Shown here piece after piece: positions 7,491 through 27,067 of a DNA stretch of 39,913 nt. Source of the stretch: Oscillospiraceae bacterium (GTDB taxonomy: Bacteria > Bacillota > Clostridia > Oscillospirales > Oscillospiraceae). The notes beneath the pieces were generated by a model that was given only the letters and a program-made list of their open reading frames with translations, was not told the origin of the DNA and made no database searches. A program made the translations under genes and the position numbers. The stretch spans positions 1 to 39,913 of the forward strand of contig JAFSZH010000069.1 in the NCBI GenBank assembly GCA_017455685.1. Reading direction: 5' to 3'. The first letter of the stretch is position 1. Each line of letters begins with the position of its first letter.

Positions 7491-7492
7491 TA

Positions 7493-25289: not shown

Positions 25290-26063
25290 ATGTGGTATGC
25301 CATAGCACGGGGCGTGCTGATCCCGTTTTTCGGAACCAGCGCCGGCGCGGCCTGTGTTTTCTTTCTGCGCCGGGCCGTGGACCCCCGGCTGGAAAAGGGG
25401 CTGGCCGGCTTCGCCGCGGGGATCATGGTCTCCGCCTCGTTCTTCAGCCTGCTGCGCCCGGCGCTGGAGTATTCCGCGCCACTGGGCCGGCTGGCTTTTC
25501 TCCCGGCAACGGCCGGTTTTCTGGCGGGGATAGCCTTTCTGCCGGTGCTGGACGCGCTCACCCCCCGGCTTCGGCCGGAGAGCGGAAGGGTGGGCTGCGG
25601 TCTTGACCGCACCGGCAGACTGATCCTGGCCGTGACGCTCCACAACCTGCCGGAGGGCGTGGCGGTGGGCGTGGCCTACGCCGGGTGGTTCTACGGCACG
25701 GCGGAGGTCTCTCTGGCGGGAGCCTCGGCTCTGGCCGTCGGCGTGGCACTGCAGAACTTTCCCGAGGGGGCTATCGTCTCCCTGCCCCTGCGGGCAGAGG
25801 GGATGGGGCGGTGGAAGGCCTTTCTCTGGGGCGTGCTCTCCGGAGCGGTAGAGCCTGCAGGGGCGGTGGTCACCGTATTCGCCGCGGGGTTCTTCCTGCC
25901 GCTGCTGCCGTATCTGCTCAGCTTCGCCGCCGGGGCCATGTTCTTCGTGACGGTAGAGGAACTGATCCCCGCCATGAGCGCCCCGCCCCGCTCCCGGCTG
26001 GGCCCGGCGGCCTTCGCTCTGGGCTTCTCGTTGATGATGGCCCTGGACGTGGGGCTGGGCTGA
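25290..26063 (+). CDS. ZIP family metal transporter
   Basis: 257 residues with about eight hydrophobic helices. The two metal-coordinating ZIP motifs are present: HNLPEGVAVG in TM4 and QNFPEGAIVS in TM5, followed by EPAGAV. The family moves Zn, Mn or Fe into the cytosol. The first motif keeps the histidine while the second has Q in its place, as in the ZupT/GufA branch. The ATG at 25290 is 11 bases after GGAGG; the nearer ATG at 25280 runs into a stop. No metal-responsive site was recognised upstream. Confidence 0.92.
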   Translation: MWYAIARGVLIPFFGTSAGAACVFFLRRAVDPRLEKGLAGFAAGIMVSASFFSLLRPALEYSAPLGRLAFLPATAGFLAGIAFLPVLDALTPRLRPESGRVGCGLDRTGRLILAVTLHNLPEGVAVGVAYAGWFYGTAEVSLAGASALAVGVALQNFPEGAIVSLPLRAEGMGRWKAFLWGVLSGAVEPAGAVVTVFAAGFFLPLLPYLLSFAAGAMFFVTVEELIPAMSAPPRSRLGPAAFALGFSLMMALDVGLG

Positions 26064-26075
26064 CCCCGCCCCGCA

Positions 26076-26112
26076 AAAAACGCTGCCCCTCTCCCGACGG
26101 GAGAGGGGCAGC
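26076..26112 (-). terminator. Second, distal terminator of the small RNA
   Basis: 14-bp arms (GCTGCCCCTCTCCC and its complement) with a GTC loop, followed on the minus strand by GTTTTTTG. On the plus strand no T-run follows, so it is not an obvious ZIP-gene terminator. Confidence 0.88.
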
Positions 26113-26121
26113 TGCGCATAT

Positions 26122-26160
26122 AAAAGAGCCGCCGCCCGAGGAGGAGGTGGACGACGGCTC
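26122..26160 (-). terminator. First terminator hairpin of the small RNA
   Basis: Arms GAGCCGTCGTCC / GGGCGGCGGCTC with TTTTATAT after them on the minus strand; the loop carries the anti-SD sequence. Confidence 0.75.
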
Positions 26161-26228
26161 AAGGAAACAGCGATTCGATCCTGCCGGTGGGGAGCATGGC
26201 GGCGTCCCTGCCCGGTCAGTTCGGAGCG

Positions 26229-26257
26229 AGTATAGCATTGTAAGAAAACGGTGTCAA
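26229..26257 (-). promoter_or_regulatory. Near-perfect sigma-A promoter of the candidate small RNA
   Basis: Minus strand: TTGACA (26252-26257), 17-base spacer, TATACT (26229-26234). It begins about 10 bases after the stop codon of the upstream membrane gene. Confidence 0.85.
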
Positions 26258-26266
26258 TCCGCTCCG

Positions 26267-27067
26267 TCAATTCTTGTGTTTTTCGGCTGATTTTTCATTT
26301 GTTTTGTCGGAAGATTTCTCCCCGGCGCTGAAATTATAGACCAGCAGCCAGCACAGCGTCCCCAGACCGACGCCCCAGCCCGCGAACAGGGCCCGGGCGC
26401 CCAGAGAGGCATCGTCCATCAGCACGGTCATGCACAGCACCATGCCCAGCGCGCAGGCAAAGACGGCCACCCGGGCCTTGATGCGGTAGTACACGTAGCC
26501 GCACAGCCGATAGGCGGCGAACAGGCACCCGGCGATGGAGAGCATCTGCACGCCGTACTCCCACACGATGGGGTCCACCGCGCTTTCCCGGTAGAACAGC
26601 ACCAGCCAGAAGCTGAAAAACAACACCGGCAGCACGGCCAGCAGCGTACCGAAGCCGCCCCAGCGGGGCAGCGAGGGCGTCAGTGCCAGCACCGGGGCGC
26701 AGAACAGGCCCAGCAGCGCCGCCACGCGCAGCAGCAGGCTCGTCTCGGTAAGGAACATATACGCCGCGCCCGCGCCGGCCGCAAAGCCCGCCGCGGCCAG
26801 CAGCACGCTGACCACCCGGAACGGCTGGGCCAGAGCGTCCTCCGGCTCCTGAGGCGCATTCTCCCAGGAGAGACGGCCGGAGAGCCACCAGAGTCCCGCC
26901 GCGGCCAGGATCAGAAAAACCACGAAGACAACGCTGATCGGGGCGTTCTTGATGGGCAGGCCAGTCTCTTCTTCAAAAATGATCTGCCGCTGCAGCCAGC
27001 GCAGGAGCATACCGAGCGCTCCCAGCACCGTGGCGGCGATGCCGTATGTCCAAGCTTCTTTCTGCAT
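26267..27067 (-). CDS. Polytopic membrane protein of unknown function
   Basis: 266 residues with about seven hydrophobic helices (for example YGIAATVLGALGMLL, VVFVVFLILAAAGLWWL and LLAVLPVLFFSFWLVLFY) and a charged C-terminal tail, EKSSDKTNEKSAEKHKN. I recognise no family or catalytic motif. AAGGGA lies 6-7 bases before the ATG, and a sigma-A promoter is 40 bases further upstream. It is monocistronic, divergent from spoIID, and its 3' end abuts the small-RNA promoter. Confidence 0.8.
   Translation of the reverse strand: MQKEAWTYGIAATVLGALGMLLRWLQRQIIFEEETGLPIKNAPISVVFVVFLILAAAGLWWLSGRLSWENAPQEPEDALAQPFRVVSVLLAAAGFAAGAGAAYMFLTETSLLLRVAALLGLFCAPVLALTPSLPRWGGFGTLLAVLPVLFFSFWLVLFYRESAVDPIVWEYGVQMLSIAGCLFAAYRLCGYVYYRIKARVAVFACALGMVLCMTVLMDDASLGARALFAGWGVGLGTLCWLLVYNFSAGEKSSDKTNEKSAEKHKN

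Follow-up and report, generated by a model that had tools for sequence, protein, structure and literature searches.

The locus and its transcription signals

The window considered here is a stretch of 39,913 nucleotides from the genome of an Oscillospiraceae bacterium (GenBank assembly GCA_017455685.1, contig JAFSZH010000069.1), in which a short minus-strand unit occupies the space between a gene for a protein with no Pfam match and a convergent gene for a ZIP metal transporter (Table 1). Read along the minus strand, the unit consists of a promoter, about 60 nt of leading sequence, a 12-bp hairpin with a U-tail and a strong 14-bp terminator. An earlier note, made from the sequence alone, had described a near-perfect promoter pointing into a region without a clear gene, two successive terminators and an 11-base anti-Shine-Dalgarno loop in the first hairpin, and all three descriptions stand: the promoter matches the sigma-70-type consensus at 11 of 12 positions, a second stem with its T-run follows the hairpin and its UUUUAU tail, and ten bases of the loop, CCUCCUCCUC, are 96-100% unpaired in the predicted ensemble.

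Table 1. The unit and its neighbours, with positions counted from the first letter of the window
Feature	Position	Strand	Remarks
Upstream neighbour gene	26267..27067	-	Protein without Pfam match; stop codon 9 bases before the -35 box
Sigma-70-type promoter	26229..26257	-	TTGACA-17-TATACT with TG before the -10 box; predicted start near 26222; based on the 11/12 match and rarity in the genome sample
5' part of predicted RNA	26161..26222	-	Forms a weaker hairpin; 3' end UUUCCUU (26167-26161)
Conserved 12-bp hairpin	26126..26160	-	GAGCCGUCGUCC / ACCUCCUCCUC / GGGCGGCGGCUC; loop ACCUCCUCCUC at 26148-26138, complementary to GGAGG-type ribosome-binding sites
U-rich tail	26120..26125	-	UUUUAU; with the hairpin a first, moderate terminator
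Second intrinsic terminator	26075..26112	-	Strong; 14-bp stem 26112..26082, T-run to 26075
Convergent neighbour gene	25290..26063	+	ZIP metal transporter; end 19 bases from the stem of the second terminator

Promoter-like sequences of this quality are rare in the genome of the window, yet exceed what chance would give. The 2.5 kb around the unit hold two sites with at least 9 of 12 matches, against a shuffle mean of 0.2, and a genome sample of 1,136,958 bases (60% G+C, with genes called as simple longest-ORF predictions) holds 85 sites with 11 of 12 matches, against 0, 1 and 0 in three Markov-shuffled copies. These 85 sites lie before a predicted gene in 39 cases, inside a gene in 24 and in an orphan position in 22, the promoter of the unit being one of the last group. 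A second orphan promoter-like site with 11 of 12 matches is found at position 7492 of the window (minus strand), with no predicted gene close downstream.

The predicted RNA of 147 nt folds better than 200 of 200 shuffled sequences (z = -5.07). An alternative fold that the earlier note had suggested, in which a 5' GCCGCC pairs with the 3' arm of the hairpin, finds little thermodynamic support (-17.1 kcal/mol, against -23.2 kcal/mol for the hairpin fold) and is absent from both the minimum free energy and the centroid structures.

Coding potential

Mechanically called ORFs do span the unit on the minus strand, but no reading frame was found that has a start codon and runs through the hairpin in each of the three species known to carry it (that of the window and two relatives, G006 and G003). 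A stop codon immediately ahead of the hairpin closes frame 0 in the window and frame 1 in the two relatives. In frame 2 of G006 no ATG, GTG or TTG follows the upstream stop; in the window, the sole start codon that the predicted RNA offers is a TTG, which precedes the stem core by 4 nt. A 12-codon ORF of the window terminates at the hairpin. One frame is open across the hairpin, with start codons, in G006 and G003, where it gives mechanically called ORFs of 142 and 81 aa; we consider it unlikely that the stretch is coding in these two genomes, and a coding gene was rejected for the window, where that frame is stopped right before the hairpin.

Other identities for the stretch were also set aside. 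When read on the opposite strand the loop would present GGAGG, but no plausible gene starts between it and the convergent neighbour, and that strand folds less stably in each of the three species (-17.0, -13.5 and -11.1 kcal/mol, against -22.2, -19.6 and -19.2 kcal/mol on the strand of the unit). A repeat or mobile element was rejected on the grounds that the hairpin is single copy in the genome and that a relaxed form of its pattern has no match in viral contigs. ARAGORN finds no tRNA in the window.

Conservation in the genus and beyond

A DNA search of 60 relatives gave matches at E <=0.01 in seven genomes. The hairpin itself is matched, besides in the genome of the window (G000), in G006 (87% over 55 nt) and G003 (90% over 42 nt); the matches in G001, G028, G042 and G049 are weak (E 2.9e-4 or worse), and in the two of these four that fall on the hairpin stretch the stem-loop is, by eye, absent. 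The relaxed pattern has matches in four of 400 genomes of the family, all four in the genus of the window, and three genomes remain after exclusion of the match in G004, which sits within an ORF.

The hairpins of the three species are identical at 31-32 of 35 bases, the last 10 nt of the loop are kept and the substitutions in the stem (U-G to C-G and C-G to U-G) retain pairing. All three units are preceded by a promoter with 11 of 12 matches, 17-nt spacing and the TG element, and a pyrimidine run of the UUUCCUU type before the hairpin is common to the window and G006. The background against which this identity can be read is given by the upstream neighbour, whose protein is identical between G000 and G006 at 153 of 259 aligned residues (59%), with the same third base at 58 of 101 conserved four-fold-type codons. 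The flanks of the hairpin in G003 (70 nt before and 60 nt after) compare with those of the other two species at z -0.5 to 1.7 against shuffles; the flanks of G000 and G006 keep a residual similarity (z 2.9 and 2.4), so that part of the identity of these two hairpins may reflect plain descent.

The test that the earlier note had set for its proposal, conservation of loop and promoter in close relatives, turned out in its favor in three of nine genomes of the genus, where both are kept. Against it, the hairpin was not found in the other six, three of which are 93-100% complete. The upstream gene is present in eight of the nine and is followed by other sequence where the hairpin is missing.

A covariance model (R1) built from the hairpins of the window, G006 and G003 gives those three scores of 76-79 bits. 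In a search of 300 family genomes with a model of this type, in which G006 is not among the matches listed, 17 reached E <=0.01, G000 and G003 included, and the best of the other 15 scored 31.1 bits; by eye these weak matches are ordinary hairpins or coding stretches, with the exception of one in G268. Among 394 genomes of the order, where the matches listed do not include G003 or G006, G000 alone reaches E 1e-5. Both model searches were run with strict filters that scored part of the first-look candidates, and the relatives were searched for the sequence of this particular hairpin, which RNAs with another stem would escape. The other genera sampled in this way gave no match of comparable strength.

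A cobalamin riboswitch in two relatives

A point that the earlier note did not have is that, in both relatives, a cobalamin riboswitch lies between the promoter and the hairpin. The matches to RF00174 score 50.5 bits in G006 and 51.8 bits in G003 (cut-off 31.5), and the order in both genomes is promoter, riboswitch, intrinsic-terminator-like site and hairpin. The window copy sits where the G006 copy does, after a homologue of the same upstream gene, and carries no recognisable cobalamin aptamer by Rfam, whether at the gathering score or at E up to 5. In G006 a further strong terminator stands 3' of the hairpin, with no gene after it up to the end of the contig, 333 nt on. In G003 a 52-aa ORF begins 69 nt after the stem core, and a role in cis is therefore possible in that genome.

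The riboswitch also occurs apart from the hairpin. In a further genome of the set, G002 (G002:C158, L056:1501-3152), it is followed by CTCTGCGGACCTCCGGAGCGA and then by a gene for a CbiK cobalt chelatase, with no match to the hairpin model at that locus; the CTCTGCGGACCTCCGGAGCGA element follows the riboswitch in G006 as well, and in G003 with one base changed. The comparison of G006 and G003 with the window on the one hand and with G002 on the other shows that the hairpin exists with and without the riboswitch and the riboswitch without the hairpin.

The 52-aa ORF is itself conserved. At G000:C68 (L038:1700-2240), in the genome of the window, and at L004:128-441, a copy of it comes after a cobalamin riboswitch, in the former genome without the hairpin; the L004 copy, which was scanned, has no Pfam match. 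A similar leader that ends in a terminator-like hairpin follows the ORF at both loci, and it may represent a second, unnamed regulatory RNA. The leader is followed in L038 by a solute-binding protein of family 5, and in L004 by an ORF cut by the end of the contig.

Terminators, leader or small RNA

Judged by its sequence, the unit has the attributes of a trans-acting small RNA, namely a promoter and terminator of its own, no credible ORF and a conserved unpaired seed. We favor reading the stretch as the gene of a small noncoding RNA, ~100 to 147 nt long and transcribed from its own promoter, with an anti-Shine-Dalgarno loop that would act in trans and a production that would be B12-gated in two of the three species, and we assign it a probability of roughly 0.5.

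Its main rival is that the two hairpins are ordinary tandem terminators, which are common in bacteria: transcription of the upstream gene would stop at them, and in the relatives they would back up the terminator of the riboswitch, with a loop that has no pairing role and a promoter that is incidental. The U-tails on both hairpins fit this proposal, as does the finding that in the window no other terminator-like site occurs between the stop codon of the upstream gene and the hairpins. Against it, a separate terminator-like site stands between the upstream gene and the promoter in G006, and the hairpin sequence, including the last 10 nt of the loop, is kept across species whose flanks have largely diverged. 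The loop is also exceptional, since among 210 terminator-like intergenic hairpins in the 1.14-Mb genome sample (stem of at least 7 perfect pairs, loop of 3-12) CCTCC occurs in the loop of one, that of the unit. A promoter with 11 of 12 matches precedes, moreover, each of the three units. Taken together, we regard tandem terminators as unlikely, if the most serious of the competing accounts.

Less probable still is a leader under B12 control that acts in cis, in which the hairpin would be a second attenuator, or an element that sequesters the Shine-Dalgarno sequence of the downstream gene, and the window copy a leftover that has lost both riboswitch and gene. The gene order in G003 would suit such a leader, and so would the loci described above at which the riboswitch comes before a homologue of the 52-aa ORF in the genome of the window, or, with the near-identical post-aptamer element, before the CbiK gene of G002, in both cases with no hairpin. 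Against it, the SD-like run of the G003 ORF, AAGGGGGCG, pairs poorly with the loop when judged by eye, G006 has a strong terminator in place of a gene, and in the window no gene on the same strand follows, the next being the convergent ZIP gene. The window copy is, moreover, intact and equipped with a promoter of 11 of 12 matches.

Pairing and candidate targets

If the small RNA gene is accepted, its loop might pair with extended Shine-Dalgarno sites of the GGAGGAGG type. The predicted pairing with GAGGAGGAG amounts to -16.3 kcal/mol, against -11.7 and -11.3 kcal/mol for two plain sites, and this preference bears on a last rival, in which the RNA would be a decoy directed at the ribosome, whose loop mimics the anti-Shine-Dalgarno sequence of 16S rRNA and lowers translation as a whole, not that of chosen mRNAs. 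The CCUCC core of the loop, and the presence of GGAGG upstream of 232 of 932 predicted genes in the genome sample, imply that pairing could be broad; the stronger extended match points instead to selectivity, and we consider the decoy very improbable.

The earlier note had envisaged that many mRNAs are blocked. Runs of 8 or 9 loop-complementary bases occur in the 30 nt that precede the chosen start of 18 of the 932 predicted genes. The ten of these that were scanned with Pfam include an AIR carboxylase, a chaperonin, a GntP-type permease and two URO-D-like proteins, and the 18 candidates have no clear theme and form no convincing regulon. A URO-D theme (two of 18) was noticed post hoc and given no weight as evidence; the predicted proteins include ten that are URO-D-like, two of these ten having doubtful starts.

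Proposed mode of action

For the small RNA gene that we favor, the following scheme can be drawn up. The promoter, observed as a sequence and presumed to be active, would yield an RNA that ends at the first or the second terminator, and the first hairpin would double as a terminator-type stem and as the presenter of the unpaired loop bases. By pairing with extended Shine-Dalgarno sites the loop would block the start of translation of several mRNAs in trans; it is from the sequence that we infer both the transcription of the RNA and this action. In G006 and G003, where the hairpin lies downstream of the riboswitch and an attenuator-type terminator, the RNA would be made when B12 is scarce, provided that the attenuator works as those of its kind usually do. 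This B12-gated reading is well founded for the sequences of those two genomes and does not extend to the window copy, which has the same type of promoter and no riboswitch and would accordingly be made without B12 control.

A wider view, which we hold tentatively and with the odds somewhat against it, is that a cobalamin riboswitch of this genus has, in place of a gene, an anti-Shine-Dalgarno hairpin RNA under its control, by which mRNAs are silenced in trans at low B12, and that the lineage of the window possesses this RNA but no switch. Anti-Shine-Dalgarno loops on terminators might then be a recurrent bacterial device, of which a conserved and apparently unnamed RNA of the Spirochaetia would be another instance. 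Vitamin supply is a shared currency of gut communities, and if this view is correct, the joining of a B12 sensor to an anti-Shine-Dalgarno loop in uncultured Clostridia would link that supply to the control of translation by RNA pairing.

Similar hairpins in Spirochaetia and at other loci

A pattern scan of contigs gave 106 stretches, of which the 80 listed were inspected. They include 20 Spirochaetia-type loci (Treponema, Rectinema, Breznakiella and others) and one assigned to 'bacterium' in which a hairpin of the terminator type presents CCUCCU in its loop and has a T-run (L069, L070, L075, L076, L079, L081, L085, L089, L090, L095, L097, L101, L124, L130, L131, L133, L135, L139, L141, L143 and L144); the further Spirochaetia matches L084, L098, L128 and L132 were left out of the alignment. 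Many of these loci also have a TTGTAAC box, a -10-like box and a second CUCC run ~20 nt upstream of the hairpin, and the element is apparently a short RNA with two anti-Shine-Dalgarno motifs that has received no name. Rfam at gathering score gave no match over the hairpin in the nine Spirochaetia loci tested (in a run that also held L126), and among the matches listed for literature on Treponema anti-Shine-Dalgarno small RNAs there is no description of it.

When R1 was applied to 39 loci preselected by the pattern, L112, which is the G006 contig, scored 77.8 bits, followed by L133 (42.3), L069 (37.5), L126 (34.0) and the rest at lower values. With loci preselected in this manner, the likeness of the window hairpin to those of the Spirochaetia may represent either homology or convergence. 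At L014:1480-1550 (the G268 locus) and L126:3420-3500 two hairpins stand in a row, the second of the terminator type with a UCCUCCU loop and a stem, GCCGUCG/CGGCGGC, like that of the window. Both pairs lie downstream of a gene, assigned by Pfam to glycosyl hydrolase family 3 in L126 and closely similar in L014.

Comparison with known RNAs

The earlier note had recognised no known RNA family. This holds at the gathering scores of Rfam, at which no family is found in the window, and is to be qualified in that the architecture resembles ar14 and CcsR below threshold. At E up to 5 the window has 11 Rfam matches, none of which reaches its own cut-off. RF02344 (ar14, cut-off 58.8 bits) scores 24.3 bits in the window, 18.8 in G006 and 17.7 in G003. 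RF02342 (ar7, cut-off 60 bits) scores 42.9 in the window (E 1.9e-7), and this likeness is probably one of composition and shape, since the scores in G006 and G003 are low (14.6 and 11.4). RF02450 (Bacillus ncr1175, cut-off 60 bits) scores 34.8 in the window (E 7.3e-5), with no match for G006 or G003 at E up to 5, and RF02791 (CcsR1, cut-off 65.3 bits) scores 15.4 in the window and 12.3 in G006, with none for G003 at E up to 5. The likeness in these near-matches is one of shape and loop, not of membership. In titles and abstract openings among the matches listed for literature on the motif, on cobalamin-riboswitch small RNAs, on cuckoo and CcsR RNAs, on C-rich anti-Shine-Dalgarno small RNAs of Gram-positive bacteria and on RepG, the unit is not described.

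The nearest relatives in form, as far as the cited sources go in the parts consulted, are ar14 (NfeR1) of Sinorhizobium meliloti and CcsR of Rhodobacter, which belongs to the wider 'cuckoo RNA' group; like the unit, both have hairpin loops with a CCUCCUCCC-type anti-Shine-Dalgarno motif (PMC10746234, PMC3927594). NfeR1, whose loop motif is nearly that of the window, is given there as an Hfq-independent RNA that, by reporters, silences ntrB at the start of translation through its CCUCCUCCC loops (PMC10746234). In the same account ar14 is an alphaproteobacterial RNA with three hairpins, each with CCUCCUCCC unpaired (PMC10746234), whereas the unit, from Oscillospiraceae, has one hairpin with CCUCCUCCUC, a terminator loop GUC and no third such loop. 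CcsR, as the source describes it in part, is a set of four homologous RNAs behind a DUF1127 gene in Alphaproteobacteria, in contrast to the one anti-Shine-Dalgarno loop of the unit.

A precedent for the riboswitch is provided by EutX/Rli55 of Firmicutes, a noncoding RNA that stands under the control of a B12 aptamer and is cut short upon AdoCbl binding (PMC6317780). An aptamer of this kind lies upstream in the same predicted transcript in G006 and G003 and was not found in the window; the output differs, in that EutX/Rli55 sequesters the protein EutV, whereas the unit would expose an anti-Shine-Dalgarno loop. The csRNAs of streptococci have loops or stretches with at least a partial anti-Shine-Dalgarno motif. 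At least a partial motif is also mentioned for RNAIII of Staphylococcus aureus in the part of the source consulted (PMC3927594). Both RNAIII and the csRNAs differ from the unit in size, locus and regulators, and resemble it in the type of motif. In RepG of Helicobacter pylori the pairing site is, in the passages of the source used, the C/U-rich loop of the terminator of the small RNA (PMC8295292); its target is a homopolymeric G-repeat, and its sequence, phylum and regulation differ from those of the unit.

The closest precedents met in this comparison are the anti-Shine-Dalgarno loop RNAs of Alphaproteobacteria and Staphylococcus together with the riboswitch-run small RNA EutX/Rli55.
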